A DNA stretch of 64,000 nucleotides, from positions 62,001 through 126,000 of the forward strand of contig JAGTXO010000045.1 of assembly GCA_019448385.1 (NCBI GenBank), given 5' to 3'. This document shows positions 16,463 to 57,675 of this stretch, piece after piece (position 1 is the first letter of the stretch; every line of letters begins with the position of its first letter). A model generated the notes under the pieces. It worked only from the letters and a program-made list of their open reading frames with translations, was not told where the DNA came from and ran no database searches. The stretch is from Diacronema lutheri (lineage: Eukaryota > Haptophyta > Pavlovophyceae > Pavlovales > Pavlovaceae). A program made the position numbers and the translations under genes.

Positions 16463-16474
16463 TAGTAGTATTCA

Positions 16475-28568: not shown

Positions 28569-28601
<33 letters not shown>

Positions 28602-30174: not shown

Positions 30175-30397
30175 GAGCATGGCGGCTCGACAGCATGGCG
30201 CCTCGACAGCATGGCGTCGTCCAGCGTGGCGTCCAGGATGGCGACTGCGCCCGGGCCGTGACGCCGCGACGTCGTTCGGCTGCGTCACGGAGGAGCGCCA
30301 TCCGTGCGCCACGGAGGAGCGGCAGGACCACGACGCGGCGTGACGCTGGACGACGCCATGCTGTATAGGCGCCATGCTGTCGAGCCGCCATGCTCTG

Positions 30398-30726: not shown

Positions 30727-30816
30727 AGCATGGCGCCCGCCCGCTCGAGCCGGACCTCCGCGCAGCCGGACTCGCCCCGCCCCGGGCTGCTCTGGCTGGG
30801 CGACGTCGTGCGCGCC

Positions 30817-31115: not shown

Positions 31116-31291
31116 CTGCTTGGGCGCGAACGGAAAACGCGCGAAGGGTGGCGACGAAGATCGTTGGGTTGGGTTGGGCCACCGGCTCCCGAGGATTGCT
31201 TGTGGCGCTCGACTGACCGTTGGCCCAGCTTTTTTTTTTCTCGAACCTACTGTGGAGCCGCCTGCAGCGTGATCTCCCGCGCACAACGACC

Positions 31292-33665: not shown

Positions 33666-34610
33666 GGTGGCGAGACGGCGGCGGCGGCGCTCGCCGCGGC
33701 CGCCGTCGCCGCCGCGCGCGAATGCGCGGCGGCGGCGCGCGGTGGCGGCGAGCGCGGCGGGCGCGGCGCGGACGGCGCGCGCGGCGCCGGCGGCGGGCGG
33801 CGCGCTGGCGGCGGGCGCGCCGCCGGCGCGCGGTGCTGGCCAGCACCCGCCGGCGCGACGCCCGCCGCGCCGCTCGCGCCGACGCGCAGCCGGCGGGTGC
33901 TCGCCAGCACCGCGCGCCGCGCGACCGGCCCGCGTACCTGCGCGCCCTTCGCGGGCGCGCAGGGCGGCGCCAATGCGGCCGGCGTGCAGGGGCCTCAAGC
34001 CGGCGCGCCGCCCGCCGCCGCGTGGGTCGCCGCCACGCGCGTGCCGTCGGCGCTGCCGCCGCCCGGCGTCGCGCTCGCGCCGCAGCCGCCGCCGCCGCCG
34101 TCGCCGCCGCCTGCCGCCTGCCGGCAAGCTGGGCAAGCGCGCAGCAGCGGCGACGGCGGTGCGCGATCCGGCGAGCAGGCGGCGCGCCGCCGAGCCGGGG
34201 GCGGGCTCCGTGGGCGACGAGGCTCGCCCGCCACTGGCACCACTCGCGCGCCGAGCGCGCACAACGCGCGGGAGTCCGCTGCGTGGCCGGACGAAGCTGC
34301 GGTCACGGCTGAGGGGCGGATCCGACACGCCGTGGCCGTACAGCACATCGAGCAGGGAGGCCGTCACATCGACATGAATTTAAGTGCCACATCGAGCACG
34401 TGATACCCTGCGGACTGGCGCCACTCCTGCCGCCCCTCGCGCCGAGCCCGCGGCGCGCGCCGGGCAGTTGTTGCGCGCGCACGCAGCACGCAGCGCGCAG
34501 ACAGGACGTGAAAAATGTGTCGCGGCGAGGACGAGGGCGAGCCCCGGCGGCTCGGCGAGGCGTCGCATCTCACACACACAGTGGCGCACTCCGAACGGCC
34601 CGGTCCACAT

Positions 34611-34656
<46 letters not shown>

Positions 34657-34899
34657 CGCGCGCGGCTAGCCGACGCGCCGGCCTCTTGCTCGCGGCTGTA
34701 GACCCGGGCGCTGAGGGCCTCGTACATGCCGGGTGGCCGAGGGACAGAAGCCCGTCTCGGTCACGCTCGTGCAGCGCAAGCGCACTGCGCACGCGCGGCA
34801 CGCGACCGCGCGCGAGACGGGCCACCGTGCAGCGCATCGGCCCCCGTCGGCGCCGGGTGCGCCGGGCGGCCGCGCCCTATGCGGCGCGCGGCGTGGAGC
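33666..34899. other. Low-complexity GC-rich stretch with a C~41 homopolymer
   Basis: Arg/Ala/Pro-rich open frames without recognisable domains, partly tandem (GCTGGCCAGCACCC-like and its inverse near 33835-33910). A run of about 41 C lies at 34614-34655. In this window sense-strand C runs mark introns just upstream of acceptors, so it may be a relic intron of the Fanzor remnant that follows. Confidence 0.45.
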
Positions 34900-35310
34900 A
34901 CCGAGGGCGCACGGTGCTGGAGGCCAACGAGCGGGTCAGCTTCACGCGCGCGCACACGCATGTGCGCACGCAGACGCGGCACGTGCACAACCCGCCCGCG
35001 CGGCTGAGTGCGCGGGCGGCGCGGCGACCTCAACTGGCGCGCGTGCGCGCTTGCGGCGGCGCGGTTCGAGCGCGTGCATGCGACCGGGCGCGGGTTCCGG
35101 CCCGAGCAGCTGCTCGTTGTGTGCGGCAGCTGGCTGCACCGGTCGCGCGGCGGCGGCCGTGTGCGAGGCAAGCCGCCCGCGCTCGGTGAGGGGCTTGCTT
35201 TGGGCGCTGCGCCGGCTCGACATCGCGACGACCCTCGTACCCAAGCTGCGGAGATCCAACGGATGCTCGCAGCTGCGCGAGGTGAAGCGGAAGTGCGCCC
35301 GCTCCGAGCG
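34900..35310 (+). pseudogene. Fanzor remnant D with lost RuvC-II glutamate
   Basis: Three short frames align in order with Fanzor B. The first (LEANERVSFTRAHTHVRTQT) matches its TEANQLLGYNNARARMRAET. The second (HATGRGFRPEQLLVVCGSWL, HRSRGGGRVRG) matches HATDVGLRPDQLLVACGDFL, HRSRGGGFARG. The third (LLWALRRLDIATTLVPKLRR) matches LLRALRKLGVATTFVPEPLS. The catalytic Glu of VPEP is Lys here. Frameshifts and the lost residue show it is dead. It is closer to Fanzor B than to A. Confidence 0.75.
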
Positions 35311-35460
35311 CGACGCCCGCCGCGGACGCCGACGGCGCGCCGCTGGCCCGGCCGCGGCTGGCGGGCCGCGGCCGGTGCGGCGCGGCACCGGCACGCTGCA
35401 GCCGTACGTACGCGCGCAGAGCGCCGGGCGGTCGCAGCGCGTGGCGGGTGGCGCGGCGCG

Positions 35461-35945
35461 ATGCCCGCGGCGGCAAGCGTGACTCAGCGCGGCAACGTCG
35501 GGGGCGGTGCAGGCGGCGTTGAAGCGAACGAGAAGGTGGACGCGGCGGCGATGAGCGGCCACGGCCACACCGGCGCGTCACGGCCGCCGCCTCCGTCGCC
35601 TCGCGCGCGGAAGCGCGCGCGGCCGGCGCGACGGACGACGGCAGGGGCGTCGGCCGTGGCGGGCGTCGTGGGCGCGCCGCGCGCCAGCCACGCCGGCCTA
35701 GCCGGGCCGTCGTCGGCGTCGTCGTCGTCGGCGGCCTCGTCGTCGTCGGCCGGAACGGCGGCGCACTCGGCGCGAAGGAGGCCGACGGCAGCGCCGGCGA
35801 CGCGCGCGTGTTGCCGCCTGCCGACAAGCTCGTCGCGCCGTGCGAGCGCGGTGTCGCCGTGTCGCCCTCGGCGGGCGACGTGGCGTGCGGCGCACGCGAC
35901 GTCGACGCGGCCGCTGCCGCACGGCGGAGCAGGCGTGGCTGGTGC
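35461..35945 (+). pseudogene. Truncated duplicate of the giant Fanzor gene 5' end
   Basis: Begins ATGCCCGCGGCGGCAAGCGT and encodes MPAAASVTQRGNVGGGAGGV. The giant gene at 36285 encodes MPMAASVTKGPGVGDGAGGD. Similarity continues through the KVDAAAMSGHGHTG (KVEETAKTSGDGCTG) region and then fades into Arg/Ser-rich sequence and a poly-G run (35948-35975). It is a 5' fragment lying about 820 bp upstream of the full copy. Confidence 0.65.
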
Positions 35946-36146
35946 GGGGGCGGGGGGGGGGGGGGGGGGGGGGGGTTGGTTGGGGGGTCGGTCGATAAGG
36001 TCGCTGGGGACAATCTCCCATCAGAAACTCCCGCTTAAACAGCCGCTAGGGCGGCCGCGTCCGGCACGCCCAGCGCCGCGACGAGCGCGATGCATTCCAC
36101 GAGCGCAGTGGTACATCGCTCGCCGTGGGGCGCACTACGGGCCTTC

Positions 36147-36156
36147 TATAAATTTA
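36147..36156 (+). promoter_or_regulatory. Possible TATA box of the giant Fanzor gene
   Basis: TATAAATTTA lies about 115 bp upstream of the preferred ATG (36261) in an otherwise GC-rich region. It could place transcription start near 36180. No experimental support. Confidence 0.35.
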
Positions 36157-36260
36157 TGAGGCCAAGAGCGACGTCTTATCACACTTTCAAAAGCAGCGGA
36201 TCAAAAGGCGTCTGCCAATCCGCCCGCGAGGACGACCGACGCGGACGACCAGCACGCGCG

Positions 36261-39200
36261 ATGGCGCAGGAGACGACCGGCTCGATGCCCATGGCGGCAA
36301 GCGTGACCAAGGGCCCCGGCGTCGGAGATGGCGCAGGTGGCGACGAAGCGATCAAGGTGGAGGAAACGGCGAAGACGAGCGGCGACGGCTGCACCGGCAC
36401 GCCTCCTCTGCGCCCGGCCGCGCGCGCGGCCGGCGCGGCGGACGACGGAGGGGCGGCGGTCGTGGCGGGCGTCGAGGGCGAGCGCGACGCACTCGCCAAG
36501 ACGGGTGCCGGCGGCTGCGACGACGACGCTCGCGAGCCGCTGTCGGCCGGCAAGCCCGGCGCACTCGCCGCCGCGGCGACCGTCGGGGGTCTCGGCGAGC
36601 TCGTCGGCAGCCTATGCGCGTGGCTGGCGCACGGCGCGGCTGGTGGCGCCATCGCGGCCATCTCCCCCGGGACGGCCGCGCGCGGAGCAAACGGCACGCC
36701 GCAGCGCGCCGAGCCGCCGGCCGCCGGCGATCCCGTCGCTCCGCACGCGTGCGTCGCCGCTGCGGCGCCCTTGGCGGGCAGCGCGGCGGCGCCGTCGTCG
36801 GCCGCGCGCGACGCGCAGCGCGGCGTCGCGGGATTCGACGCGGCCGCGCACGCGCACGCGCGCGACGGCAGGCGGGCGGCACGGCGGATGCGCAAGCAAG
36901 AGGGGGCGGTGCACAGGGCCTTCCGCAAGTCCCTCTGGCGCGACGCGACGTTTGTCGAGTTCGTTGAGAAGCTGCGCCCCGACGGCAGCGCGCAGCTGCT
37001 CGCGCGCGAGCCCACGCGGCACGCGGCGGCGGTGCTGTGCGAGCTCGCGCGCGGCCGCGACGGCGCGAGCGGCGCGGCCGGGCTGCTGCACGAGATGAGA
37101 GCCGCCGATGCGCGCGCGCGCGAGGCCGCCAAAGCGGCGGAGGCAGCGCGGCTTGCGCACGGGACGCTGCGCATCGTGGCAACCGTGGCGCTGGGCGGTG
37201 CGGTCTTCGCCGGCATGTCAGCGCTGGTCGTTGCTTGCGCGGCGCGCACGGCGACCGGTGCGCTTTTTGGGGCCCGCCGCCCGCGGGCGGCCGCGCGCGG
37301 AGCCGACGACGCGCTCGGCACGCTGCAGCGCGCCGAGCCGCCGCCCGCCGACAAGGGCAAGCGCAGGCGCGCCAGAGCCAACGACGACCCCGTCGACGCG
37401 GCGCGCAAGGCCGTGGGCAAGGCGGAGGGCAACTGCCGCAAGGCAGCCCGCCGGCTGCACCTCGCTGCACTGGGCGAGGAGGAGGCGCAGCAGCGCGTGC
37501 TCGACGCCGAGGCGGCGGAGCAGCTGGCGCGCTCGCGCGAGCCGGCCGGCGGCTGGGTAGGCAGCGCGCGCGCGCGCGCGCGCGCCCCGCCGCGCGCGCG
37601 CCCGTCGATTGGCGTGCGCGCAGCGCAGAACGGCGCGCCAGCTCCGTCACCTGCGCGCCGCCGCGCCCGTGCCCCTCGCGCGCAGGGGCGCCCTGCGGAC
37701 CTGCGGCTGCAACAGGCGCACTTTGGCATGCGCGAAGATGCCGACGCGGATGTGCGCCGCGCGCACGAGGCGCTGCGCCGGGCGAGACAGGGTGTGGCGT
37801 GCGCCAAGGCCAACGTGCGGCAGATGGAGGCGGCGTTGCTCAACGCGACGCGCTGCGCCACCGCGGTGCTCGCGCCGCGTGGCGTGCCGGAGGGTGACGA
37901 GCAGGCCGCGGCGAGAGAGCAGGCGGCGCTGGACCGGGAGGCGCCGCCGGCCGCGGAACGCGCGGCGCCGACGGCGCGCTCGCCCTCGGAGCTGCCGTCC
38001 GAGTGGGGCCCGCCAGCGGTCGGCCGGCGCCCGACGCCGCGTGCACTGTCGCACGCCGCGGGGTGCGGGGACGACAACCCGTTTGCGCCGCTCGCAACCG
38101 TCAGCGGTGATTGGTCGCCCACGCCGAGCTTGCGCCCGCCGTCCTCGCCGCCGCGGCAGCCGCCGTCCGACCGCCGCAGCGCGCAGCGTCGCAGCGCGCG
38201 CGCGCGGCCGCCGAGGCCGACCGTTTCACCCGAGGAAGCGCTCGCAGCCGAGCGCCAGGCGCGCGCGCTGTCGGAGCAGGCGGAGCAGAGGCGCGCCAAA
38301 AAGGCCGCCGCCAAGGCCGCGCGCCGCGCCGCGCGCGCCGCCGACAAGCGGACGGCGCGCGTCGTCCACGCGTGCGTAAGCGCCGCCTTGCAGCGCGTCT
38401 GCACGAGCGTCGCCACGGGCACGCCGCTCGCCGTGCTCCGCGAGCGCGCCGAGAGGCCGCGCGCGCCGAAGGCCGCGCCCGCGCCACCACGCCGCGCAGC
38501 GGACGGCGGCCGCGCGCTCCGCCACGCGCGCCGTGCGGCCGATGCGGCGGCGGAGCGCGAGGCGGCGGTGGCGGCCGACGCCGACGAGCGGTTCGAGCGG
38601 CAGCCCTCCGCCGCCCGGTTCGACGGCGGCGATGGCGGCGGAGGCGGCCACGTCGAGGCGAGCGCGCGACCGCGCGCCGGCGAGGCCGGCGAGGCTGGCG
38701 CGCACGGCGCGCCTGGCGCAGCGGGGACCCCGGCGGCGTCGCTCGCGTCGCGCAGCCCGTGTGATGCGCGCCGCACGGCACGCCTCCCGCACGCACGCGC
38801 CGCAGCCACCTACGCAGGCAACGGCGGCTGGGGTGGCAACGTCGGCGGCGACGTGTGCGGCGATTGTTTCGGCGGCGGCGGCGTCCGTCGCGACGCCTGC
38901 GGCGGCGGCGACGCCACCTGCGGCTGCGGCGATGGCGGCGTCGGTGCTGGCGCTGGCGAGGCCCCTGCACACGGTGCGCCGGCGCGCGCGACGGCGTCGC
39001 GCTTGCTGCGCTTGCTCGGCGCGCCACGCGCCGTGCTCGGTGCGATGGCGCACGCCGCGGCCGTGTTGGCGCGCGGCGTGGCCGCAGCCGTCGCTGGCGT
39101 GCGCGCCGCCGCGCGCGCCGTGCGGCGCGCGCGCCGCCGAGCGCCTTGCGCGCGCCGCACGGCTGCGCGGCGCGCTCGCAGCCCGCCGATGCGCGACGTC

Positions 39201-42200
39201 GACGGCGCCCTGCGGCCCTCACCGTCCTGGCCGCGCACACGCCTCGTCTGCGGCCGGCGCCTCGCGCCTCTGCGCCGCGCGGGCGCGCGCCCGCCGCCCG
39301 CACACGCCGCGCCGAGTTCCCGCGCGCGCGCTGCGCAACCCGACAGCGACGCGCCGGCGTGCGCGCCGCGGCGCTCGGCGCCTGTCGGTGCGCCGCCGCG
39401 CGCGCGTGGCCTGTGCGCGGCGCGCGCACGGCGCGTCCTCGACGTCGCCGGCCGCGCGGCGCGGAGCGCGCGCCTCGGCGCGCGCATCACGCGCCAGCGC
39501 ACGCCGGGCCCGTCATCGGAGCCCTGCACGGCCGAGAGCGGCGACGGCGCGGGCGCCGGCGGCATCGGCGCGGCGGCGCCTGGCGCGGCGACGATGCGCG
39601 CCACCGGCGCGCGCGCAGCGCGCGCTGCGGCGGCGGCGGTCGGTGGCGCCTCGCGTCTCGCGCGCCGCGCGATGGCAAGCGCCGCCGCCGCTGCCACCTC
39701 CATAGCCGGCGCTGCCGCCTCCACCGTCGCCGCCGCCGCCGTTGCCATCGGCGCGGCCGTCACGTCACCGGCGTTCGCCGCGGCGCGTGGCATGGCGGCC
39801 GCATGCGTCGCTGCCTGCGCCCGCCCCACCGCCGCGCAGGCGGCCGCGTCGCGCGCGCTCGGCGCGCTCTTCGTGCTCGTCGACGCGGCCGACGCGGCGG
39901 GCGACAGCGACGCCGCGCTCGGCGCGCTCGCGGCCGCGGTCGACGCGACGGAGCTGCGCCCGCCGCCGGCCTTTTGGCGCGCGGGCCGCGCCGCGGCGTA
40001 CGCACCGCGTCCGCCGCCCCTCAACTCGGCGCGGCCGCGCTACAACCGGCGCGCGCGCGCACCTAGCCCTCCCGTCGCGGCCGCGCCGCGCAATCTCGAG
40101 CGCGCGGTGCGCGAGCTCACGCGCGCCGCGCGCGCTGAGCGCGAGCGCGCGCCGGCGCCGCGCGGCGCGCGCGGCGGCGTGCTCCACGCGCTGCGCGCGT
40201 CGCTCCCCGTGCACGCGCGCGTTGCGCTCGGCACGGACGCGGAGCTGCGCGCGGACATTGCCGCGTTCGCGCGCGCGCGCCGCGAGCTGCACAGCTTCAC
40301 CGACGCCGAGGTGGCGGCGCTCGCGCGCCCGGACGGGCCGCCGCTGCCCGTGCGGCTCGCGTGCACGGCGGTCGCGCGCGCGCGCGGCGTGACCGTGCTG
40401 CTCGACATCGTGCCGCGCGGCGGCGGCGCACCCGAGCGGCTCGTGTGCCGCGCCCGTCGCCGCGGCGCCGCCACGCGCACGCCACGGCCGACAGCCGCCG
40501 TTATCGCGCGCGCGCCTTGCATAGCGGCGCGCGTTGGCCACACTGAGCCGGCGCGCGCGTGCGCGGGCGGACCGATCGGGGTCGTGCGCCTCCGTTCAGC
40601 GCGCCGCCGTTCTTGGCGTGGGGCGCGGCTCGACGTGCACACCCGCGAGCGGCTGGCCACACCGGTGCCATGCCACGTCGTGGCCTGCGCCGCCGCCTCG
40701 GCCATCGGCGCGTGCGTCGCTCGCGCGCGGCTTGGGCTTGCACGGCTGGCGCGCGCGTGGCCCTGCGCCTCCGCTCCACTAGCCACTGCTGCTGTCGCCT
40801 TCGCGCCTGCCGCCGACGGTGTTTTCCCCGCCGCACTAGCCGCTCCTGCATCCGCCTTCGCGCCTGCCGCCGATTTTCCCGCCCCACTAGTTGCTCCTGC
40901 ATTCGCCTCCGCGCCTGCCACCACCGGCGTTTTCCCCGCGCCACTAGCCGCTCCCGCTGTCGCGTCCGCGCCTGCCGCCGCGGGCGTGTCTTCCGCCCCA
41001 CTAGTCGCTGCCGCTGCCGCCCTCCAGGCCGCCTCCGACGGCGTTTTCCCCGCCCCACTAGTCGCTGCCGCTGCCGCCTTCCAGGCCGCCTCCGACGCCT
41101 TTTCCCCCGCTCCACTAGCCGCTGCCGCTGCCGCCCTCCAGGCCGCCTCCGACGGCGTTTTCCCCGCTCCACTAGCCGCTGCCGCTGCCGCCCTCCAGGC
41201 CGCCTCCGACAGCGTTTTCCCCGCCCCACTAGTTGCTCCTGCATTCGCCTCCGCGCCTGCCACCACCGGCGTTTTCCCCGCGCCACTAGCCGCTCCCGCT
41301 GTCGCGTCCGCGCCTGCCGCCGCGGGCGTGTCTTCCGCCCCACTAGCCGCTCCTGCATCCGCCTTCGCGCCTGCCGCCGATTTTCCCGCCCCACTAGTTG
41401 CTCCTGCATTCGCCTCCGCGCCTGCCACCACCGGCGTTTTCCCCGCGCCACTAGCCGCTGCCGCTGCCGCCCTCCAGGCCGCCTCCGACGGCGTTTTCCC
41501 CGCCCCACTAGTCGCTGCCGCTGCCGCCCTCCAGGCCGCCTCCGACGCCTTTTGCCCCGCTCCACTAGCCGCTGCCGCTGCCGCCCTCCAGGCCGCCTCC
41601 GACGGCGTTTTCCCCGCTCCACTAGCCGCTGCCGCTGCCGCCCTCCAGGCCGCCTCCGACAGCGTTTTCCCCGCCCCACTAGTTGCTCCTGCATTCGCCT
41701 CCGCGCCTGCCACCACCGGCGTTTTCCCCGCGCCACTAGCCGCTCCCGCTGTCGCGTCCGCGCCTGCCGCCGCGGGCGTGTCTTCCGCCCCACTAGCCGC
41801 TCCTGCATCCGCCTTCGCGCCTGCCGCCGATTTTCCCGCCCCACTAGTTGCTCCTGCATTCGCCTCCGCGCCTGCCACCACCGGCGTTTTCCCCGCGCCA
41901 CTAGCCGCTGCCGCTGCCGCCCTCCAGGCCGCCTCCGACGGCGTTTTCCCCGCCCCACTAGTCGCTGCCGCTGCCGCCCTCCAGGCCGCCTCCGACGCCT
42001 TTTGCCCCGCTCCACTAGCCGCTGCCGCTGCCGCCCTCCAGGCCGCCTCCGACGGCGTTTTCCCCGCTCCACTAGCCGCTGCCGCTGCCGCCCTCCAGGC
42101 CGCCTCCGACAGCGTTTTCCCCGCCCCACTAGTTGCTCCTGCATTCGCCTCCGCGCCTGCCACCACCGGCGTTTTCCCCGCGCCACTAGCCGCTCCCGCT

Positions 42201-43711
42201 GTCGCGTCCGCGCCTGCCGCCGCGGGCGTGTCTTCCGCCCCACTAGCCGCTCCTGCATCCGCCTTCGCGCCTGCCGCCGATTTTCCCGCCCCACTAGTTG
42301 CTCCTGCATTCGCCTCCGCGCCTGCCACCACCGGCGTTTTCCCCGCGCCACTAGCCGCTGCCGCTGCCACCCTCCAGGCCGCCTCCGACGGCGTTTTCCC
42401 CGCCCCACTAGTCGCTGCCGCTGCCGCCCTCCAGGCCGCCTCCGACGGCGTTTTCCCCGCCCCACTAGTCGCTGCCGCTGCCGCCCTCCAGGCCGCCTCC
42501 GACGCCTTTTGCCCCGCTCCACTAGCCGCTGCCGCTGCCGCCCTCCAGGCCGCCTCCGACGGCGTTTTCCCCGCGCCACTAGCCGCTGCCGCTGCCGCGT
42601 CCGCGCCCGCCGCCGCGGGCGCGTCTTCCGCCCCACCAGCCATCGCCGCCGCGCCCGCCGCCAACGCGCGCACCGCCAACGTGCCCGTTGCCAACGAGGC
42701 TACCGCCACCGAACCAGCCGCCCTTGAGCTTCCCCTCCAACCCGCCAACTCGGCGCTGCTTGCGTGGGCGGGCGACGCGGCTGCGCGCCGGCTGGCCGCC
42801 GCCGCCGCGAGCGCCGGCCTCCCGCAGGCAGAGGTGGAGCGCATCGCCAGCGGCGACATGCTCGCCTCAACCGTCGACGCGTGCTGCGAGGTCGTGCTGC
42901 GCGTGCACGGGCAGGCCGGCGGCGGGCATGTCTGCCACGTGCCGCTCGCCGCGCAACCCGCGGTGTTTCAGGACGACGCCGAGCGCGCCGCGCTGCTGCA
43001 CCGCCTGCGCAGCGAGGCGACAACGCAGGCTGTCATCGGCGTGTGGAGCCCGTCGGACGAGCGCGGCGGCGCGGGCGGTGACGACGGCGCGCAGCTCGCC
43101 TCCGGCCATTTCACCGCGTTGCGCCTTGTGCGCGTCGCGCGCGCGGGCGAGCATCGCTACGACGCGGTGCTCGTCGACACGCTCGCGTCGCCCTGCAGGC
43201 AGGCGCTCATGCTCGCCAAGGCGATAACTGCCACGCTGCACGCGGCGGGTCTCGACATTTCGCGCGTGCGCCGCGCGCTGCTGCTCAACGAGGCGGCGCA
43301 GCGTGGCGCGACGTGCGGCCTCGCGATAGTGGGCGCGCTCAACGACGCGCTCGCCGCGGCGGGCTGCTCGTCCGCGCCGCGCACGTTCAGCGTGGCGGAC
43401 ATGTACGCTGTCGGCGAGCGCCTCCGCGTCGCGCTGACCGGCGCGGCCAGCGATCGTGCGCCGGGCGGCGTCTGCGCGGTCACGAGCGCGGTGCGTGGCG
43501 GGGGCAGCCCCGATCGCGCCGAAACGCCGCCGCAGACGCGCGGCGCCAAGGCCGCCGCTGGCGTCACCGCCGCCGCCACCGCCGCCGCCACGCCGCCGCC
43601 GCCCGCGCTGGGCGCCGCCGCCGCCGCCACCGCCGCCGCCGCCGCTGCTGCCGCCGCCGTGGCCGCGCCGCCACCGCCGCCACCGCCGCCGCCGGCCGGC
43701 GACGAGGGCGA

Positions 43712-43780
<69 letters not shown>

Positions 43781-46700
43781 GCGCACGTTCTTGAAGCTCG
43801 CGCCCAGGGCGCGCGCGGCCGCCTCGGCGCGTGAGGCGTTGCGCGCCGCGTGTGCGCGCGCGGACGCGGCGGCGTCGTCACACGCGTCGGCGCCGCACGC
43901 GCCCGCCGGTGCGCGCCGCCGGCGGCGCGCGGGCGCAGGCGAGCTGGCGCTCGCGGCTGCGCGCGCGCTCGCCTCGACGGAGCACGGCGATTTGACGGAC
44001 GACGCGCTCGAGGCCGCCATCGAGCAGGAGCTGGGCGACGAGCGCGGCCAACTGCTGCTGTGCACGCGGGGCGCAGCGGCGCAAAGGCCCGCGCTTTGCC
44101 GGCTCCTGAAGCACGCGTGCGCGTCGGCGCGCGCGGCGAAGCGCGCGCAATTCACGGTGTTCGTCGTGCGCGCGCCCACGCGCGGCGAGCGGGGGGGCGC
44201 CGCCGCGACGCGCGTGGACTCGGTGGTCGAGCTGTCGTGCGCGCTGCACGAGAAGGCGGGCGCGCTCGGCGGCCTCCAGAGCGTCTGTGTGCGTGGCTTT
44301 GCCCTCGAGCGCCGCCGGACACTCGACGCTGGCGCCGAGGCCGGCGCGTCCGCCATCGGCCAGGACGAGCAGGTCGAGGCAGAGGCGGGCGAGGCGTCCG
44401 TCGCCGGCGTGACGATGGCCAAGCAGCTGCGTCAGTTTGCCGAGCAAGCTGCCCGCGACGACGTGCTCTTCCACGTCGCCGTGTCCGAGGCCGACGCCCA
44501 CGCCCGGCTGGCGCGCGTTGCGGGTGACGATGTCGGCGCGTACAGCGTCGTGCTCGCAGTCGCCGGGCTCGTCTGGCTGGCCAAGGCCGACGAGGTTGCG
44601 CCGGCGGCCGCCCAGCCCGCCGCCGTGCCGCCCGCCGCCCCGCCTGCTGCCGCCACGTCCGCCGACGCCGAGCGCGACGCCTCGCCTTCCGACCGCCTGC
44701 GCGCGCTGACGCTCGCCGTGCGAGTCGCGCTCGCGCGCGGCGTGCTGCGCCACCTCCTCGCCGACGCGTCGCCGGGCGCGTCCGCGACCGCTGGCGGTAG
44801 TTGCGCGACGCCCGTCGAGGCGGCCACGTCCGCCGCCGCGCCGCCCGCCACGGGCGTCGTGACGAGTGGCGTTGCGGCGGGCGCTGTGGCGGCCGCACCG
44901 GCTGCTGCGGGCGGTGCGATGGCGGGTGCATCGCCCATCACGCGGCCGGCGAAGCGCGCGCGGCGCACGCTCACCGCCGCTCCAGCCGCCTCGGCCGTTG
45001 CGGCCGCTGGAGGCGCACGCGCGGGCGCACGCGGCGCGGCCGGCGCGCCTCGCGCGCGCGCCGCGCGCGCGCCGGCCGAGTACGTCTGGCTTGCCATCGC
45101 GCGCCGGATGCTGGCGGCGCGACACGCGGCGGCCGCGGGCGGCGACTTTGTCGCGTCGTGCGTCGCCGCGATGCAGGCCGAGTACGGCGACGGCTGTGCC
45201 GTCGTCGTCGGCGACGCGCCTGATGACGCCTTGGTCGAGGCTGCGGCGGCGGCGCTGCTCGAGGGCAAGCACGCGGCGGTGAGCCTCGGCTGCGTCGACC
45301 GGCCGGCGGTGCTCGTCGTGCAGCGCGCCGTGGACGCGCCCACGTCGCGCGTGCACGGGTGGTGCGCGCACGCGGCGGGCGCCGCCGAGTTTGACGAGGG
45401 CGCCGCGCACGGCGTGTTCAACGCGATCGTCGAGCGCGCGTGGGCGCTGCGTCCGGACCCGGCCGACGGCAGCCCGCCGCCCACGCGCACGTGGGAGGTC
45501 GAGCAAATCGCTGGCGACGCGCCCGACCAGGCGGGCGTGGCCGCGCTGCGCGTGCTCTACGCGCTCGTCGCGGCGCACGGCCGCTACCGCTCGGCCGCCG
45601 CGCTCTTTGGCGCGCTCGCGCAGCTGCACGCGCCCGACGCCGCCGGCGCGCGCGCGGAGGTCGTCGCGGCGGCGTGCGCGGTGCCGCCCGGCGCGCGGCC
45701 GGGCGCCGCGCCGGCGGCCGCGCGGGACGACGCGAGGGAGCGCGCATGGGAGGGCGCTCAGATCGCCGCGCTCGCCGTCGGCGCGGACGCTGCGCGCAGG
45801 CGTGTCGCGCCCGTGCGCGCGCTCGTCGACGCGCTCGGCACGCCACCGACCTCGGCGATCACGGGCGGGCCGGCGGTCCGGCTCGCGGGCGCGGGCGACG
45901 GCGGCCACGGTGCACGGTGGGTGGGCGGGCAGGCGGCGACGCCCGCCGAGCAGCTGCCGAGGGAGCTGCTGCGCGCCTACCACGAGGCGGTGCTTTGCGT
46001 CACGCCCGGCAGCCTCCAGCTCGGCCCGGCGGCGCTCGACGCGGTCACGCGGCCGCGCGAAAACGACACGCTGGAAGGCCTCCTCGCGCGCGTCAGCTGG
46101 CAGTGCGGCGCGAGGGCGAGCACGTGCGCCATGCTCGCCACGTTTTCCGAGCAGGCGGGCACCGGCTCGCGCGTCGCGCTCAAGGCCCTCCGCACGAGCT
46201 CCGACCTGGCCGGGCTGACGGCGGCTGCGGTCGGGCAGCAGGCGCCGCAGACGCCGCCGCCGCCGCTTCTCGTGATGCTCGGCCGCTGCCCCAGCCCGCT
46301 CGTCGGCGGCGGCCTCTTCCCGCCCGACCGCGCGACGGGCGAGCCGGCGGTGCACGCGGCGACGTCCGAGCTCGCCGTCGAGCTGCTGCGCGACGCGCGC
46401 GCGCTGGCCGGCACGGACGGGCGGCTCGTCGTGCTGTGCCTCGAGGCGTCCAACCCGCTCTGGTTCTGCCCCAAGGTGCGCGAGCTCGAGCTGCCGCGGA
46501 CGCGGTCGGACGGCGTGCGCGCGTCCGGCTGCACCTGCCCTGCGACGTGCAGCGATGCGCGCGGCGCGGCGGGTGGCGCTGCCCGCGGCGCATCGACGCG
46601 GCCGGCGGCGCGCGCGATCAACAAGGCGGTGCTCGACCACTTCGTCGCGCTTTTCGGCCGCGAGGGCTTCGCGACCTTTGAGTTTGCGGGCGGCGGCGAG

Positions 46701-49700
46701 GCGAGCTGGCTGTGCGACAGCGCGGCCGGCACGACGACCGTCGCGGCGTGCGCGTCGCTGCCGCCGCGCATGGGCGATGGGCAGCTGGCCATCCGGCGGC
46801 ACACGCTCGGCACGGGCGCCGACGCGCCGGCGCACGCCGTCGTCTCGCTCCGCGTCGCGCACGTGAGCCACGCCATCCGCCGCGCGGCGGACGACGGCGG
46901 CGCGCGCGCCGAGCGGATGGCGCGCGCCGCGCGCGCGTTTTGCGATGTGGCGGCCGCGCTGCGCGTCGACGCGATCCTGGCGGAGGTGCCCGAGGACCGC
47001 CCGACGGGCACGCCCTTCCTTGGCGGGCTGCTCAAATGTTGGGACAAACGCAACGGGAGCTGGACGGCGCCAGCCACGCTCGCGCTCGGAGACGTGCGCG
47101 AGGTGGCCAAGCGGACGGCCGACGCAGCGGCCGGCCGAGCGGACGAGGTCCCTGCGGCTGGCCGTCCGCAGGTCGCGGCGCGCGCGTGCGCTGGCGCGAT
47201 TGGCGGCGGCGCGGGCGCGGCGGGCGCCTCGGACGCTGCGCCGCGTGCACTGGCGGGCGCGTCGGGTGCGCGCACGGACGGCGGCCCTGCCGACGCACCG
47301 CGCCAGCTGGAGAGCCGCTACGGCGAGGCGAGCAAGCTCGACCTACCCCAAGATTCCACTACGGGCCGCGTCCTCGACGCTCGCGAGGCCCAGGACCGCG
47401 CGCGCGTGCCTGCTGCGCCCGACGGCACAGCGCTGCGCCGCGTGCTCGACGCCGTCGGCGCGGGCGCGCCCGCGCAGCGCAGCCCGCGCTGGCACGACGA
47501 GCGATGGGAGGAGGTCACGGGCAGCAAGGTTGGCGACGTCGTGAACGACAACGCCGGCGTCGCGCACGAGACGCTCACCGACGAGTACGTGCACCGGCGG
47601 CGGCGCGAGGTGCGGACCAAGGCGACGACCGCGGGCATCCTCGGCGAGGCCGTCGCGCTGCGCAAGCTGGCGGCCGCGTACGGCATCACCGTCGTGTGCA
47701 ACCTGCCGATGGTGCGTGCGGACCCGCACGACAAGAGCGCGCCGTTCGCCTTCTCGCCGGACGGGCTCGCCATCCTCCCCGAAAACAACGAGCAGGTCCT
47801 CGTCGAGGTGAAGACGCTCACCAAGGCGGGCGCCACGGCGCACGAGGACGGGCCGCCGCAGCCGCACCGCGATCAGCTGCAGCTCGGCATGCACGTCCTC
47901 GGCGTGAGCAAAGCGCTCTACGTGCAGTACCTCAGGCACGAGGACCGGATCGTCGTGCACGTCGTGACGCGCGGCGCCGGCTGGCTTGCATTCGCGCAGC
48001 CGAGGGTGCAGGCCTTCTGGGCGCGCGTCGTCGAGCGGCGCGCGCGGCTCGAGCGCGCGCGCGCCGACCACCCGGCTGCGAGCCGGCGGCACCGGCGGCA
48101 GCAGACGCCGGCCGGGCCGCCGCTCGTGCTCGCGCTGGACGGGCGCATCCCCGCCGCGCGCGCCGCCGCGCTGCACGCCGTCGCGCACGGCACCGCGAGC
48201 GCGGCGGCGGTGACGGCGGCGGCGGCGACGGGCGACGCGACGGCGTTGCAAGACGCGATCGCGGCGCTGCGCGCGCCCGTCGGCAATGCGGCGATCGACA
48301 GCGCAGCGCGTGCGGAGCGCGCGGCCGTCGAGCGGGCGATCGCGTACCTCGGGCAGCCGGCAGGCGACGCCGCCGCCCGCGGCACGGCCGAGGCGGCCGA
48401 GGAGGAGAGGACGGTCGACGCCGACATCTGCGCGTTGCTGCACCAGCTCGGCGCGAGCGTGGCGCACGTGCACGTCGAGGACGCGGATTGCGTCACGCGT
48501 GAGCACTGGGGCGGGGCGGTGCTCGCTGCAGCGGGCGACCCGTCGAGCGCCCCCGCCATTTCGAGCGTCATCGTCGCGCACATCGTGCGCCTCGCCGGCT
48601 TTGGCGTCGAGCTCCCGCAGTCGATTCGCGTCGCCCCCAGCACGGCCGACTGGCACGAGGGCTGGCTCGACGTGCAGTGCGTGCTGCTGCGCACGCGCCG
48701 GCGCGGGCGGCGCGACGACGACTTTGTGGCCGTCGTCAGGCGCGGTGGGCGCTGGTTTGCGTGCGAGCCCGGCCGCGCGCGGCGGCTGCAGTGGCGGTCG
48801 GTCCTGCGCCGCGCGCGCGGCGGCGTCGACGGGACCGGCGAGGAGGCGTTCGCGGTCGTCTACGTGCGGCGCGGCGACGCGGCCGGCGACGCGGCTGGCG
48901 ACGCGCAGGCCGAACGGGCGCGCGGCGGGCGCGCGCGCAGGCGCACGCGCGGCGGCACGCGCAAGCGCAAGCGCGGCGCCTCCGCCGGGCTCGAGGCGGC
49001 CGCGCCCGCCGGCGCGCCGGCGGGCGCTGCTCACCGCCCGCCCGCCAGGCGTGCTACGGTCGCCGCGCGCACCACGCGCTCTGTGACCGACGCGCGGCAC
49101 TCGGCGCCTGCCGCCACGGTTGCACCTGTCTTCGACTGGCGCGCCGGCCGCCCGCCCCCTGCCGCCGCCGCCGCCGCCAAGCGCGGCCAGGCGCTCGAGC
49201 CGGGGCAGTTCGCGCGGCCGCGTGGGCGCGCGCCATGGGGCAAGGTCTGGGACAGAGTCTCGGGTGCGTGGGCGGACAAGCCGACTGGTGCTGCCGTCGC
49301 CGCCGCGCCGCCGCCGCTGCCGCCCGCCGCCGCGCCGCCGCCCGCCGCCGCGCCGCCGCCCACCGCCGCGCCGCCGCCCGCCGCCGCGCCGCCGCCCGCC
49401 GTCGCGCCGCCGCCCGCCGCCGCGCCGCCGCCGCCGCCGCCACCGGCGGCGCTCGGCCGCCGGCAGCACGTCGGCGCGGGCGGCAGCGCGGCGGGCCGGC
49501 GGCTCGCGGCCATCGCACGGCGGCAGCGCGGCGTGCGCGCGCCGCCGCCCGCCGCGCGCTTCCTCGCCACGCTGCCGCCACCGCCACGCGACGGCCTCGC
49601 GCGCACGAGCAAGCAGGCGCGCGCGAGGCGCAACGCGGACGGACGGCCGGCGCACGCGCGCGCGGCCAACGCGCGCGCCTTCTACCGCGGCGTGGAGCTC

Positions 49701-52700
49701 GGCGTGCACGCGACGCGCGCCATCGTCGACGCGCGCCACGCCGACCTGCCGCAGGCCGTCTTCGTGGCGGAGGCGCGGGCGATCGTCGCGCGCTCCGCCG
49801 GCGGCGGCGCGCTGCTCGCGCCGGACGACGTGCGCGACCTGTGCGACGCGCAGACGGACGCCGATCGCGCTGCGATCTGGGCGTCGGTGGGCGCGCACGA
49901 GGCGACGCGCATCTTCGCGCTCGTCACGCGCAACGCGAGCTTGGCGGGCGCGGCGCTGCTCGTGCTGCACACGCCGGCGGGCGCGCCGGCGCGCGCGCTC
50001 GGGCTCCTGGCGACGCGCTCGCGCGCGCCGTCGACGGGCGCGCCGCGCGACGCGCACAGGGCGCTGGTGCAGCGGTTGGACGTGCTGATGGACGCGATCG
50101 CCGCGGCGCGAGGCGCGTCGCCGCTCGAGCTCGAGCTCGCGCTCGCGCCCGAGCCGCAGAGCGCGTGCAACGCGCGTGCGGCCGCGCTGCTCTGCCTGCA
50201 GGCCGTCGCGGACGCGAGCGGCCGTCCCGCCGCTGAGGACGCGCTGGCCGCGCTCGACGACGCGCGCGGCATCGACCGGCACTGCCACGCCGTCCGGCAG
50301 CAGATCGAGGCGAAGCTCGCGTGGCGGCGCGCCGACGGCGCCGTCGGCGTTGACGGCGCCGACGGCGCGCCCGCGCTCGCGCCTGCCGCCGCACCGCCGG
50401 CGTGCGCGCCGGCGCACGCTGCCGGCGAGGCGGCGGTCGACCAGGCGATCGTCACGCGGGTGCGCGACGCGCTGCGCGCGTGGGCGACGACTGGCACCGC
50501 GCCCAGCGCGGCGGTGCTCGACGACGCCTGCGCCGCGTACACGGCCCGCGCACGCGCGCGCAAGGACGCGCGCACGGCGCTGGGCCCGACGCGCGCGGCC
50601 GAGCTGCTCGCCGCGGCCGCGCGCGGCGGAGCCGACGGGGCGGATGCCGCGCGCGCGCTGCTCGGCGGCACGCCGCGCCTGCTCGTCGTGCTCCTCTGCG
50701 TGCCCGTCGCCGCGCCGTCCGGCGAGCCGCCGCGCCCGGTCGGGCTGCTCGTCGCCGACCGGCCGACGGACGACTCGCGCCCGGCCGCGCTCGTGCGCTA
50801 CGACTTTGCGCCGCTCGACGCGGACGTGGCCGTCGCGGTCGGCGCGCATGCCGTCGCGCTGGCCAGTGCGATCTGGCCGCTGCTCGCGGCCGAGGGGGAG
50901 CCGCGGCCATCGCCCGTCGTGCGCTCGCAGCCGCGCGGCGGCGACGATGGCGCGCGTGCGCTCGCAACGTTCGCGTGCCTCGACGCGCTGATGACCGCCA
51001 GCGTCGGCGCGCACGGCCTCGCGGGCGGCGCGGGCATGCTGCCCGCGCTGGTCGCGCGAGGCGCCGCGGCCGCCCAGCGCGAGCGGCAGCTGCGCGCGGC
51101 CGCCGAGAGGCTGGGCGGCACGGTCGCTGGGTGGCCGGACACGGGCGCGAGCGCGGCGGGCGCGAGCGTCGACGAGGAGGCGCGCACGTACGAGGTCGAG
51201 GCGGTCGTCGACGAGCGCCGCAAGGCGGGCAAGAAGGTGACGTTCCAGTTCCGGATCAGGTGGCGGGGCTACGACGAGAGCGCCGACACGTGGGAGCCTG
51301 AGGCCAACGTGAGCAGCGACCTCGTCGCCCAGTTCCGCAAGACGCGCGACGAGCAGAAGCGGCGCGCGGGCGTATCGGGCAGCGGCAGCGGCGGCGCGGG
51401 CGCGGCGTCGGCATTGGCGTCGGCGCCGCTTCGCGCGCACGGCGAGTCGGGCGCCGCGGGCAAGCGCGCCGCGGCGGGTGCCGCCGCGAGCGCGCGCGAC
51501 GCCGCGGGCGCGCGCGCGCCGAGCGTTCCCCGCGCGCGCGGCGTCGAGCGCGCGCGCGTGGACGAGCCCGCTGCGCCGAGCGCGCGCGCCGCCGGCGGCG
51601 CGACGGCGCGCACGCGCGGCAGCGTGCTCCCGGGCTTCGTGGTCAAGCGCTCGACGCTCAACGCGGGGCCGCAGGCGGTGACGGCGCAGCCCGGTGCGCG
51701 GAAGGAGCTGCGGCGCATCACGGCGGCCGTGCACAGGCTCACGACACAGGCGTACCGCGTCATCAACAAGGTGGTGCGCGACGAGGCTGCGGTGGCGAGC
51801 GCGCAGGCCGTCGGCGCGGCGTCGGGCGGCCCGTCGACCAGCGTGCACACGTCGACCACGATGGACAAGGGAACCGTCCGTGCGATCTTCTCGGCCATCG
51901 GCTGGCACAAGGACGAGAGCACGTACGGTGCAGCGCCCCGAGGCAAGCCCGCCGAGCAAGCCGCCGCGCAGACCAAGGCGGCGACGGCGCGCGCCGTCGG
52001 CGAGATGGCCGAGGGCGTCCAGCCCGTCTGCGCGGTGGGCCTCACGGAGATCCTCGAGGCGGAGGCGACGCAGGTGTCCACCGCGTGCCTGATGCATCCA
52101 TCGCGCGTCGTGAACGGGCTGCTCCGCGACGTCGTCCGCGCGGCAGTCGAGCGCGACGAGGCGCTCGTCGCGCTGCCCGAGATGCAGCGAAACGCGCGCG
52201 TGCGCGAGCTGTGCGAGCGGCTGCTGCGCGGCGACGTGGAGGGCGCGCGCGTCGGCTGCCCCGCCGCGCTCGACCGCCACCTGCCCGACATGGTCCTCCA
52301 CAAGATCGACTACAAGTGCACGCCCACGAAAAGGTGGAACTACGACCGGCACACGACGCGCTACTTCCTCGTGCAGATCCGCACCCTGCAGCACGTGGCC
52401 GAGGGGCAGGCGCTGCTCTGCCGGCTCGCGCACATCCACACGCAGCTGACCGGACGGCCGCCGCGGTACAATGTGGCGCCGCTGCGCACGCACAATGTGC
52501 GCGCGAGGCGTGGCTGCCGCTGCCGCCGCCGAGGGCCCAAGCGCGCGCGCCGCCGCCGTGCGCGCCGCCCCGCGGCCAGGTTGGTCACGCGCCCGCGCGC
52601 TCGCGCGCCGCGCGCTGCGCGCAGGTGCCGCGCAACGTGCGCTTCGCCGCGAGCGCCATCTGGGTGACGCTTTCGGATGACGAGCGCAAGGAGCTGCGCG

Positions 52701-54349
52701 CGCGGCTCAAGGCGCTGGACCTGCGCGACCACGATGGCGAGCCGATCAAGTGGACAGGCACAAACGGCAACACCCCGCCGATGTCGGACGTGCGCGTCAG
52801 GTACGCGGTCTTTGCGACGCGCTTCGACATCTCCAACCGCGTCTTCGACTACGCCGGGCGCGAGCGGCCGCCGGCCGATCTGCCGTGGCACGCGCGGCGC
52901 TCGTGGGTTGGCCTCGCGCCGCTGCCGCGCGTGCCGCTCCCGGGCCGGCAGCCCGTCAAGTCGGTGGTGACAGATGGCGTCGCCGTGCACGCCGTCGGGA
53001 CCGTCCTCGTGCCGAAGGCGCAGGCGCCGGCCGGCGGCTCGGGCGTCCTGCACCGCTGGCGCCGGCCGGACGGGCGCATCGCCGTCGCGCTCGGCTCCGA
53101 GCTGCGGCGGGCGATCGACGTCGAGGCGGCGGTCGTCGTCGCGGCCGACCCGAACATGGGCAACATCACCACCTACTCTGCGCACGTCGGGCGGGCGGCA
53201 GTCTGGCGGCAGTTCACGCAGCGCGCGCGCGCGCGCGCCGCGGGCTTTGCGCGCGAGACGGCCAAGACCAACGCGGCGCGGCGGCGCGTGCGCAAGGACG
53301 GGCGCGGCGAGGAGTTCAGCGTGGAGGCGGACGAGGCGCGGCTTGGCGAGGCGCACAGCGCCAAGGTGCTCGGCGAGGGCGAGTTCCACGCCTTCCACCG
53401 CGAGAGCGCGCGGGTGCGCGAGCGCGCCGCCGAGCACGTGTACGACGCGCCGGCGCGCCGGAAGGAGCGCTGGCGGCGCGACAGCGGCGGGCGGTCCAAC
53501 GCGGCGCGCGTCGCCGAGGCGCTCATCGCGGCGCACTGTGTCGACGGCGTGACGCGCGACCGGCTGCTCGTGTGCGTGGGCAAGTGGCTGCGCGACCACA
53601 AGGGCGCGCAGCCCAAGGGCGCGCCGCCCGCCTTCCAGGTGGGGCTGCTGCGCGAGCTGCGGCGGCGCGGCGTCGCGGCCGTCTTCGTGCCCGAGCCGTA
53701 CACGTCGATGCACTGCTCGATGCCGCGGCTCGCCAAGGGCGGCAGGCTGCAGCGCTGCGGCGCGGAGCTCGCGCAGAACCCGCGCCTGCCCGTGGCAAAG
53801 GGCGGCACGCGCACGGTGCACGCGCTCGTCATCTGCCCGGCGTGCAACGGCGGCAAGAAGCCCGTGCACCGCGACTACAACGCCGCGCGCAACATCTTCT
53901 ACGACGTGCACGACATGGCGGCGCACGCGGCCGGGCGCGACACCACGTCGACGCCTGAGCGCTTTGCCCTCGTGCTCGCCTGGTGGGCGCGCGGCGAGGT
54001 GTGGGAGCGTGAGGAGCGCATGGTGCACGGCGAGGGCGACGACTGCGACGACGAGTGCGACGGCGACGACGAGGGCGACGACGAGGGCGACGACGACGAC
54101 GACGACGATGGCAGCGGCGACGGCGGCGGCGGCGAGGGCGACGGCGACGGCGACGGCGACGGAGGCGGCGGCGGCGACGACGACGATGACGGCGGGGGAG
54201 GCGGCGGCGGCGACGGCGGTGGCGACGACGGCGGCGGGCGCGGCGGCGGTGGCGGCGGCGGCTCTCGCGCCCGCACCCCCGCCCGCGGAGCTGCCAGCGC
54301 CAGTGCCGGCGGCGGCAGCGCGCGCGGGCCGAAGCGCGGCCGGCGTTGA
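36261..54349 (+). CDS. Giant polyprotein: protease, YqaJ nuclease, chromodomain and C-terminal Fanzor (Fanzor A)
   Basis: Exons 36261-52496 and 52625-54349 (GT-AG, phase 0) give about 5986 residues; in-frame introns inside exon 1 cannot be excluded. Domains in order: a hydrophobic helix (37163-37262); Arg/Ala-rich sequence; a 1.8-kb repeat domain; a C48/Ulp1-like protease (His 43107, Asp 43176, Gln 43299, Cys 43314); decayed papain-like modules (45.1-45.7, 49.6-50.4 and 50.5-51.0 kb); a YqaJ-type exonuclease (47.4-48.0 kb; Asp 47760, Glu 47805, Lys 47811); a UCH-like piece (48.4-48.9 kb); a chromodomain (51186-51345); and Fanzor. The Fanzor part has an N-terminal lobe (51.6-52.5 kb), RuvC-I Asp 53147 (AADPNMGN), RuvC-II Glu 53693 (VPEPYTSMHC), zinc CPAC and RuvC-III Asp 53873 (HRDYNAARNI), then an Asp/Gly tail. 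Fanzors are RNA-guided DNA nucleases related to TnpB. ATG 36090 is an alternative start. Confidence 0.85.
40790..42610 (+). repeat. Higher-order coding repeat, 450-bp period, in the giant gene
   Basis: Basic units of 45-57 bp end in TTTTCCCCGCNCCACTAG and encode FPAPLA-AAAALQAASDGV or APAFASAPATTGV variants. They are arranged in a higher-order unit of 450 bp: the block starting CACTAGCCGCTCCTGCATCC recurs at 41341, 41791 and 42241. The copies are almost identical, showing recent homogenisation. The encoded domain is Ala/Pro-rich and probably an extended spacer. Confidence 0.9.
43711..43784 (+). repeat. GCC triplet expansion (polyalanine)
   Basis: An almost uninterrupted run of about 24 GCC codons encodes polyalanine between the protease domain and the next module of the giant polyprotein. 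Confidence 0.85.
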
Positions 54350-54790
54350 CGCACGGCCGAGCCGCGCAGCGGTCGACGCTTTGCGGGCTCTGCCCAGGTC
54401 GCGCGCGGCTGGCGACGCGTGCCGCGCGCGGCACGACCGTGCACGCCGCCACCCGTGGCCGAGCGCGCCGCACCAGCCGGCCCGCTCCAACCGCCGTGCG
54501 GATCACGGACGCTCGCTACGGCTCGTCGGCGCGCGTCACCTGCGCCGGCGGCCACGGCGCCGTCTGCTCCGGCCTCGTCGCGAGCAGCCCGACCGCTGCT
54601 CGCCGCCCGCACGCCGCCGCAGCAACGCTGCGCGTCGTGCTCCCCCGCTCGCCAAACGCGAAGAGCTCCCTCACAAGGACGTCCTTCCGAACGGCCCGCG
54701 CTGCACTCGGGGCGCGATCGTGCCCCTGATCGGATTTGGCTTGACCATCTATACGCTGACTACTGACAACTGATGGGGTAGGGGTTGAGA
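54350..54790. other. Spacer after Fanzor A
   Basis: No gene seen. It should hold the 3' end of the Fanzor A element and the promoter of the next gene. CGCTGACTACTGACAACTGA at 54757 weakly resembles the insertion in stem-loop copy 2 (CTGACTGCTGACAGTGACAG). No full copy of the stem-loop repeat is present. Confidence 0.45.
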
Positions 54791-57574: not shown

Positions 57575-57597
57575 TATGCACGGAAAGTATATACTCA

Positions 57598-57675
57598 CGG
57601 CGCTTACGTCAGGACAGCGGGGTCAGCACCAGCTGCGGGGGAATCGAGTAGCCACCAATGTCGTCGATTCCCGCG
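57598..57675 (-). repeat. Dispersed stem-loop repeat, copy 3, overlapping the Fanzor B 3' end
   Basis: Read on the minus strand it contains GGGAATCGA, a 16-nt loop and TCGATTCCC (perfect 9-bp stem), then CAGCTGGTGCTGACC and TGACGTAAGCGCCG. The last 20 codons and the stop TGA of Fanzor B lie inside it. A second hairpin (TAGGGTTC, TTC loop region, GAACCCTA) lies just upstream at 57690-57710. This is the position of the guide-RNA scaffold in TnpB loci, so it is a candidate Fanzor RNA. Confidence 0.7.

Follow-up and report, generated by a model that had tools for sequence, protein, structure and literature searches.

A putative giant DNA transposon, recently amplified in a pavlovophyte alga, with a Fanzor at the C-terminus of a ~6000-residue protein

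Introduction

Eukaryotic transposons carrying Fanzor1 were described by Bao and Jurka (2013, PMC3627910). In the part of their account drawn on here, the Fanzor lies in the 3′ part of the element, the Mucor MCi-2 family keeps its Fanzor end constant while its 5′ parts vary, the carriers belong to several transposase classes or to none recognised, and Helitrons are among the elements known to carry Fanzors; neither "exonuclease" nor "protease" appears in the main text. Fanzor cutting of the sister chromosome has been suggested to aid the propagation of transposons of the ssDNA type (PMC10432273). Polintons/Mavericks (PMC6431247) span 15–40 kb and offer a second comparison among large elements.

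Here we analyse a window of 64,000 nucleotides from Diacronema lutheri (contig JAGTXO010000045.1, positions 62,001 to 126,000), in which we find one copy of a repeated giant element. It is like the Fanzor1 transposons in its 3′ Fanzor, in its 5′ parts, which vary beside a constant Fanzor end, and in having no recognised transposase; unlike them, it measures 21–31 kb, has about 225 near-identical copies and encodes its Fanzor as the C-terminus of a ~6000-aa protein that also contains a chromodomain and a RecE-type exonuclease. The element is a variant within the known Fanzor-carrying transposons. Its size falls in the range of Polintons, with which it would also share a cysteine protease if the one here is real; unlike Polintons, it gave no profile match for a DNA polymerase B, a capsid protein or a packaging ATPase in the scanned open reading frames (27850–31500 being scanned in one reverse-strand frame).

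Results

Ends, copies and junctions of the element

The copy in the window, of a type of about 26.9 kb, occupies positions 27850–54754 (+ strand, as do all features below). Its ends are fixed across the sampled copies, the flanks of which differ except for a recurrent short repeat. The left terminus (27850–27880, here GTATATAGGGCGCGGTCCGGGCTGG) was seen in 13/13 left ends, the bases around its TATA differing from copy to copy, and a 25-mer from it has 234 genome-wide matches at up to one mismatch (reversed-pattern control, 0). The right terminus (54730–54754, ending in GGCTTGACCATCTATAC) was placed by end comparison and by a 21-mer count of 224 at the same tolerance (control, 0). These counts correspond to about 225 copies, and since they are so alike, one-ended transposition was rejected. 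Most copies belong to size classes of 31 (31.0), 29, 26–27 and 21.5 kb, and the family is estimated to make up about 11–15% of the 43.5-Mb genome. Giant-gene stretches compared between copies are mostly 97–100% identical. The Fanzor end is constant and the left halves are mosaic: a type-specific middle segment (34304–36287) is represented by full matches of the query 35000–37500 in 16 of 40 scored copies, and the 31-kb type has a different sequence in its place.

The initial annotation had treated the region as a single locus and suggested a self-contained giant element. A giant element is indeed present, but as one of about 225 copies; the region reported corresponds to the right-hand two-thirds of a copy that starts about 8 kb further left, and that account lacked the frame-interrupted helicase gene upstream of the giant gene. 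A search of positions 27700–55000 against Rfam returned no match, and of 12 pattern matches to possible viral relatives none was confirmed.

Thirteen junction pairs combine precise ends with differing flanks. TATA flanks both ends in 12 of them (it is missing to the right of L048/L025), and a longer target duplication, as would be looked for in a DDE transposon, is not clear, although the L057/L058 pair can be read as having one of 5 bp, TATAC. At 4/15 left ends the neighbouring sequence is a recurrent short repeat, one end of which bears TATATAC; some 95 extra bp at the left end of the window copy and of L040 belong to a separate short repeat and were rejected as part of the element. The paired TATA with its variable adjoining bases, together with the TATATAC-bearing neighbour, would suit movement by an integrase, such as a tyrosine recombinase, that uses TATA as its core site and is either provided in trans or too divergent to be recognised. 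We regard this as rather unlikely, given that none of the 16 PF00589 matches in the genome falls on the contig of the window (one is found on contig C17, some 4.5 kb away from an element copy) and that no integrase profile was found in the scanned open reading frames. The genome-wide search for tyrosine recombinases covered PF00589, so the enzyme could still be of the Crypton type.

Contig boundaries coincide with the right terminus in at least 10 of the roughly 100 right ends listed, and also on C26 and C29; with the left terminus they coincide in 1 of 100 listed left ends. Telomere targeting, which this pattern suggested, was set aside in favour of a presumed assembly effect, PacBio/Canu dealing here with near-identical repeats of about 30 kb; the asymmetry is perhaps due to the mosaic left halves.

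A Helitron-like helicase and the search for a mobility enzyme

A PIF1-type (Helitron-like) helicase gene lies at 31529–33621, in pieces of differing frames (31529–32602, 32455–33090 and 33094–33621), either because the gene is interrupted or because introns not recognised here split it; it is frame-interrupted in the copies examined. Its Pfam matches are PIF1 (2.5e-14 and 1e-24) and Pif1_2B (9.6e-14), and in the PDB the Helitron transposase Helraiser alone matches at E below 0.01 (6.2e-7 and 4.9e-13). It is our impression that a single-strand-binding domain precedes the helicase, and likewise that the 31-kb type holds a PD-(D/E)XK-like domain.

The Helraiser match, the 3′ hairpin described below, the lack of a clear target duplication and the published occurrence of Fanzors in Helitrons (PMC3627910) would suit a Helitron-derived element mobilised by rolling circle with Rep supplied in trans, the Fanzor polyprotein being cargo that aids retention. 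We hold this possible but doubtful. The single HUH pattern used for Rep had no match in the six frames of 27701–54900, and a genome search with PF14214 gave 1 match, on contig C63, where the element ends are absent from the 3.2 kb of that Rep locus (L038). The termini are TATATAGG..CATCTATAC and not the TC..CTRR of Helitrons, the ends occur about 1:1, and the gene product is a giant polyprotein, unlike in Helitron or Helitron2. Asymmetric terminal inverted repeats were rejected as chance, an ATIR-like match being equalled in 73/300 controls. Because neither a Rep nor Helitron ends were found, membership in the Helitrons was rejected despite the helicase. Taken together, the HUH pattern, PF14214, PF00589 and the profiles on open reading frames found no known transposase in the element.

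The giant gene

The open reading frame at 36090–52667 (5525 codons) contains 0 stops, and the other five frames of the stretch have 21–69 each. Codon-position GC is coding-like from 36.5 to 52.5 kb and the frame switches at about 52.5 kb, from which, together with the frame itself, we delimit exon 1 (36090–52496; 5469 codons, no stop). It is followed by a GT-AG intron of 128 nt (52497–52624), at whose junction four relatives start exactly, and by exon 2 (52625–54349), which encodes the Fanzor RuvC and TNB according to PF07282 and motif. The spliced junction reads ..YNVAPLRTHN followed directly by VPRNVRFAASAIW.., and the joined model has 6043 aa if the start is the ATG at 36090. Exon 1 includes about 33 copies of a 57-bp tandem repeat (40771–42615). 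Stretches at 43.8–47.4 and 48.2–51.1 kb, between which the exonuclease lies, match no Pfam family. Earlier claims of a near-uninterrupted coding region and of one gene that combines a chromodomain with a YqaJ-type exonuclease and ends in a Fanzor are borne out by this model and by the profiles that follow.

The YqaJ/RecE/lambda-exonuclease domain (47400–48200) matches PHROG_434, a RecE-like exonuclease, at 5e-17; lambda-exonuclease TIGR03033 (4.5e-7) and Pfam YqaJ (0.0014) are below cut-off, and no relative was found in the PDB. It has E 47646, D 47760, ExK 47805–47813 and Q 47874, which we take to be catalytic. The domain and these residues are those of the phage RecE/lambda-Red exonucleases; unlike those, it is fused to a guided nuclease in a eukaryotic transposon protein. 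Two structure models (pLDDT 45 and 38) are uninformative even for this clear exonuclease. The chromodomain (51189–51341) matches PF00385 at 4.1e-13, with 49.5 bits against a cut-off of 25.1.

The segment at 51645–52496 has no Pfam match; from its position and translation, it is presumably the N-terminal part of the Fanzor. In exon 2 the TNB domain (PF07282) scores 1.7e-6 and 28–28.5 bits against a curated cut-off of 26.3. The Fanzor/TnpB motif, tested in its published form as D-X(125,275)-[TS][TS]-X-X-C4 zinc finger-X(5,50)-RD, is present as D175-X184-TS..C..C..C..C..RD417. The triad D 53147, E 53693 and D 53873 (E-D spacing, 60) is in the right order and invariant in 4/4 aligned sequences, the SpuFz1 triad being D383/E541/D606 (PMC11423790). 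The NCBIfam TnpB match (0.023) is below cut-off, and the PDB gave only a chance-level row for Cas12f1 (0.26). The 3′ non-coding end (54350–54754) is, by position, a candidate region for a guide RNA (omega-RNA). It has a hairpin with a 7-bp stem, and its last 200 nt are not more stably folded than shuffled sequences (z −1.29).

A C48-like segment

A Ulp1/C48-like protease had also been proposed. Its motif is present at 43107–43316 (first codon bases H 43107, D 43176, Q 43299, C 43314), but the profiles give no support: Pfam has no Ulp1/C48 match at E up to 10, HMMER filters dropping most weak matches, PHROGs none, and NCBIfam a single row that is unrelated (0.064). A screen of 8000 candidate proteins yielded none that scored, and a genome search with PF02902 gave 9 matches, all of them on contigs other than that of the window, although the genome has at least 150 copies of the segment. 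The strict H..D..Q..CG pattern, written after seeing the sequence, occurs in 10/2000 shuffles. That this is a protease is a weak, motif-based suggestion. Could it cleave the polyprotein and free the nuclease? In the 31-kb type a second such motif is found towards the N-terminus, and two or more strict matches occur in 0/2000 shuffles; however, the looser pattern is frequent by chance (511/2000), no profile or homologue supports the idea, and the single-sequence model, at pLDDT 45, lends it no support from fold. We consider such cleavage unlikely.

Divergence between copies

The copies are very young, and therefore differences between them are spread roughly evenly over codon positions, with the exception of L010, where 13/25 differences in part of exon 1 are at third positions. 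In L011, an 84–88% variant, changed codons in the C48-like region are 19 synonymous to 28 nonsynonymous in a first piece, slightly enriched for synonymous changes, and 17 to 42 in a second, which is not. Purifying selection is not clearly visible in either comparison, and the proposal that intact catalytic residues reflect recent selection is unsupported.

If the element is a dead relic whose proteins are no longer made, its copies might stem from segmental duplications in the host or from ectopic recombination. The frame-interrupted helicase would agree with this, as would a GC-run length change that shifts the N-terminal frame in 5/6 sampled 31-kb-type copies and in L032. However, the giant frame is at least 4400 aa from stop to stop in 85/144 scored copies, and these open frames, with the precise ends amid differing flanks and the near-identity of copies, indicate recent mobilisation; we find a relic very improbable.

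Discussion

We hypothesize, with confidence evenly balanced, that a giant DNA transposon has recently amplified in this pavlovophyte alga and that the protein of its main gene, ~6000 residues long and made up of the C48-like segment, the RecE/YqaJ exonuclease, the chromodomain and the Fanzor, serves guided cutting, resection and copying. The Fanzor, guided by RNA from the 3′ end of the element, would cut DNA that matches the guide, for example empty target sites; the linked exonuclease would resect the break, the chromodomain may tether the complex to chromatin, and host repair would copy the element in. First insertion at new sites would need a recombinase or Rep activity, acting in trans or hidden in those parts of the giant protein that have no assignment.

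The sequence establishes the ends of the element, the number of its copies and the gene model, together with the Fanzor, the chromodomain and the exonuclease. Speaking for the mechanism are the fixed ends of some 225 copies, the mosaic left halves beside a constant Fanzor end, the open giant frame, the order of the Fanzor triad, the exonuclease and chromodomain, TATA junctions without a clear longer duplication, and the published suggestion on sister-chromosome cutting (PMC10432273). Against it stand the missing transposase, the interrupted helicase, the lack of a clear selection signal between copies, the 3′ end without significant RNA structure and the stretches of the giant gene without a Pfam match. 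It is improbable, in our view, that the transposon is self-contained, one transcript giving a guided nuclease to break empty sites, a RecE-type exonuclease to make the broken ends recombinogenic, a chromatin reader and a separating protease, while an ancestral PIF1 helicase would assist the synthesis of long copies. If this self-contained version is true, cutting, resecting and copying lets a 30-kb element reach more than 10% of a genome mainly via directed recombination.

Because the fusion puts a resection exonuclease and an RNA-guided nuclease into one protein, the role of Fanzors in transposons becomes directly testable, and the fusion is a natural design for break-plus-recombination editing. 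The D. lutheri genome was reported to contain 22.9% repeats, with LTR elements accounting for 32.7% and LINEs for 3.8% of masked bases (PMC8379373), and the family described here could make up a large part of what these classes leave unexplained. D. lutheri would then be a genome with a Fanzor-encoding element as a leading repeat, and a programmable cutter combined with a DNA-resecting exonuclease would rank among the most successful selfish genes of that genome.

Copies, ends and insertion sites

The window holds what is almost certainly a giant transposon carrying a Fanzor nuclease. Sampled copies share a left end at 27850 and a right end at 54754, and their outside flanks differ. In the genome searched (43,492,796 bases in 103 contigs, with the window at C42:62001-126000), a 25-mer from the left end occurs 234 times and a 21-mer from the right end 224 times at no more than 1 mismatch, with 0 occurrences for each reversed control. 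Among the matches listed, 99 left ends were typed, a partner being a right end within 40 kb: 69/99 had one, with a mean span of 28.2 kb, and 30/99 had none. The paired ends fall into classes of about 31 kb (n = 30), 29 kb (n = 9), 26–27 kb (n = 7) and 21–22 kb (n = 13), with 10 further spans from 12.6 to 37.8 kb. The element would occupy about 15% of the genome if every end marked a complete copy, or about 11% when scaled by 69/99. Identity to the window across the giant gene is mostly 97–100% in the compared copies; the helicase part of the 21.5-kb type is 92–96% identical, and copy L011 has stretches at 84–88%. So many near-identical copies with precise ends imply recent mobility. Because contigs break at the right end of the element (starts of C1, C5, C6, C10 and C12; ends of C3, C8, C13, C14 and C43), it limits assembly contiguity. 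The published assembly of Diacronema lutheri, a pavlovophyte haptophyte, has 43,502,671 bp, 103 contigs and 73.25% GC, and that paper's text contains no word starting with "transpos" (PMC8379373).

TATA flanks both ends in 12 of 13 junction pairs, one of the 13 having a right flank truncated where its contig stops; the L057/L058 junction could be interpreted as a 5-bp TATAC duplication. Searches for a mobility enzyme were negative for the HUH pattern and PF14214 in the window copy and for PF00589 on the window's contig, and the sole Helitron Rep match in the genome lies at C63:35738-36019 (PF14214, 8.3e-23). A short repeat (CGACATTGGTGG...GTAAGCGCCGTTAGTATATAC), present in the window at 16395-16520 and 57589-57675, stands directly left of the element at 4 of 15 examined left ends, and by eye the flanks of three further loci (L042, L049 and L056) are related to it; it is possibly a preferred target. 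The copy on C11 (about 767400-799600; L051 and L052) appears to interrupt a gene; its right-flank reading, ..LMGADYHVLHHKYNY.., resembles a fatty-acid/sterol hydroxylase.

The giant gene and its protein

The frame at 36090-52667 has 0 stop codons over 5525 codons, against 21–69 in the five remaining frames, and the codon-position GC profile switches frame at about 52.5 kb. A GT-AG intron at 52497-52624 connects exon 1 (36090-52496) to exon 2 (52625-54349), giving 6043 residues, in agreement with the polyprotein of some 6000 residues proposed in the initial annotation. Four sequences related to the Fanzor exon, all from short contigs (P0004–P0007; 39–46% identity, two of them partial), begin exactly at the exon 2 junction, which fits a conserved intron position, with the caveat that gene callers may favour such starts. 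We consider a two-exon fusion gene very probable. A Pavlova_lutheri-labelled database protein shows 97% identity over 8% of query 47301-48599 and, by eye, also agrees with the sequence immediately before it.

Three of the four domains first read from motifs were recovered. The C-terminal Fanzor exceeds the PF07282 cut-off and has the published motif in full; D175, E357 and D417 follow the same D, E, D order as D383, E541 and D606 reported in SpuFz1 (PMC11423790), and they are unchanged in 4/4 aligned sequences, which also cover a second Fanzor family in this genome. That second family comprises L060 (C85:59500-67000), where a 1779-aa frame starts with repetitive, low-complexity sequence and ends in the Fanzor, and genome-search rows at 43.9 bits. 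The YqaJ-type exonuclease matches the RecE-like PHROG_434 (5e-17), with Pfam YqaJ (0.0014) and TIGR03033 (4.5e-7) both below cut-off, and the chromodomain matches its profile at 4.1e-13. For the proposed Ulp1/C48 protease, the catalytic-type motif is present and is the sole support, whereas profile and homologue searches were negative; an active protease seems doubtful. Slices at 43.8–47.4 and 48.2–51.1 kb matched no Pfam family.

A second gene is marked by matches to PIF1 helicase profiles at 31.5–33.6 kb, spread over several frames, which may be divided by unrecognised introns. The nearest solved protein is Helraiser, a Helitron transposase. A 31-kb-type copy (L037) has the same helicase frames, its sole indels relative to the window being at 33751 and 34079, and parts of the gene are missing from L028 and L030. 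Codon changes between L028 (21.5-kb type) and the window in the two main helicase pieces (12 nonsynonymous to 3 synonymous, and 21 to 5) gave no sign of purifying selection.

Mosaicism among copies

The 31-kb type has a different middle segment and a giant protein longer at its N-terminus, the extension bearing a second C48-like motif. With 35000-37500 as query, 16 of 40 scored matches were full-length, 23 started at 36279 and 1 at 36160. Inspected by eye, the reading frame at 35008-36159 looks like a diverged copy of the giant protein's start, which suggests past recombination between element lineages. A GC dinucleotide run at 37564-37601 varies in length among copies and determines the frame of the giant ORF. 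Of six sampled copies of the 31-kb type, five carry a +4 change at 37563, as does L032 (window type), and the sixth carries +6; the +4 change puts the N-terminal part out of frame with the remainder of the protein. This probably explains why 64/144 scored frames measure 4490–4525 aa; 85/144 reach at least 4400 aa, 10/144 at least 4800 aa, and 24/144 fall below 3000 aa. In the left part of the element, 29849-30717 forms an inverted repeat (90.5% over 878 bp, L040 against the window's opposite strand), and a small reverse-strand frame of coding-like composition near the left end (29021-29569) has no Pfam match.

Possible mechanism

We found no report of Fanzor together with YqaJ in the open-access full-text literature. 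Papers naming Fanzor alongside polyprotein (5) or chromodomain (3) do occur there, and one of these, PMC6338049, treats Fanzor in general terms only. A link between Fanzor cutting and propagation has been proposed before (PMC10432273). Tentatively, and with more doubt than confidence, we hypothesize that the element's Fanzor would carry out guided DNA cutting, that the exonuclease linked to it would then resect the cut, and that repair may subsequently copy the element in.
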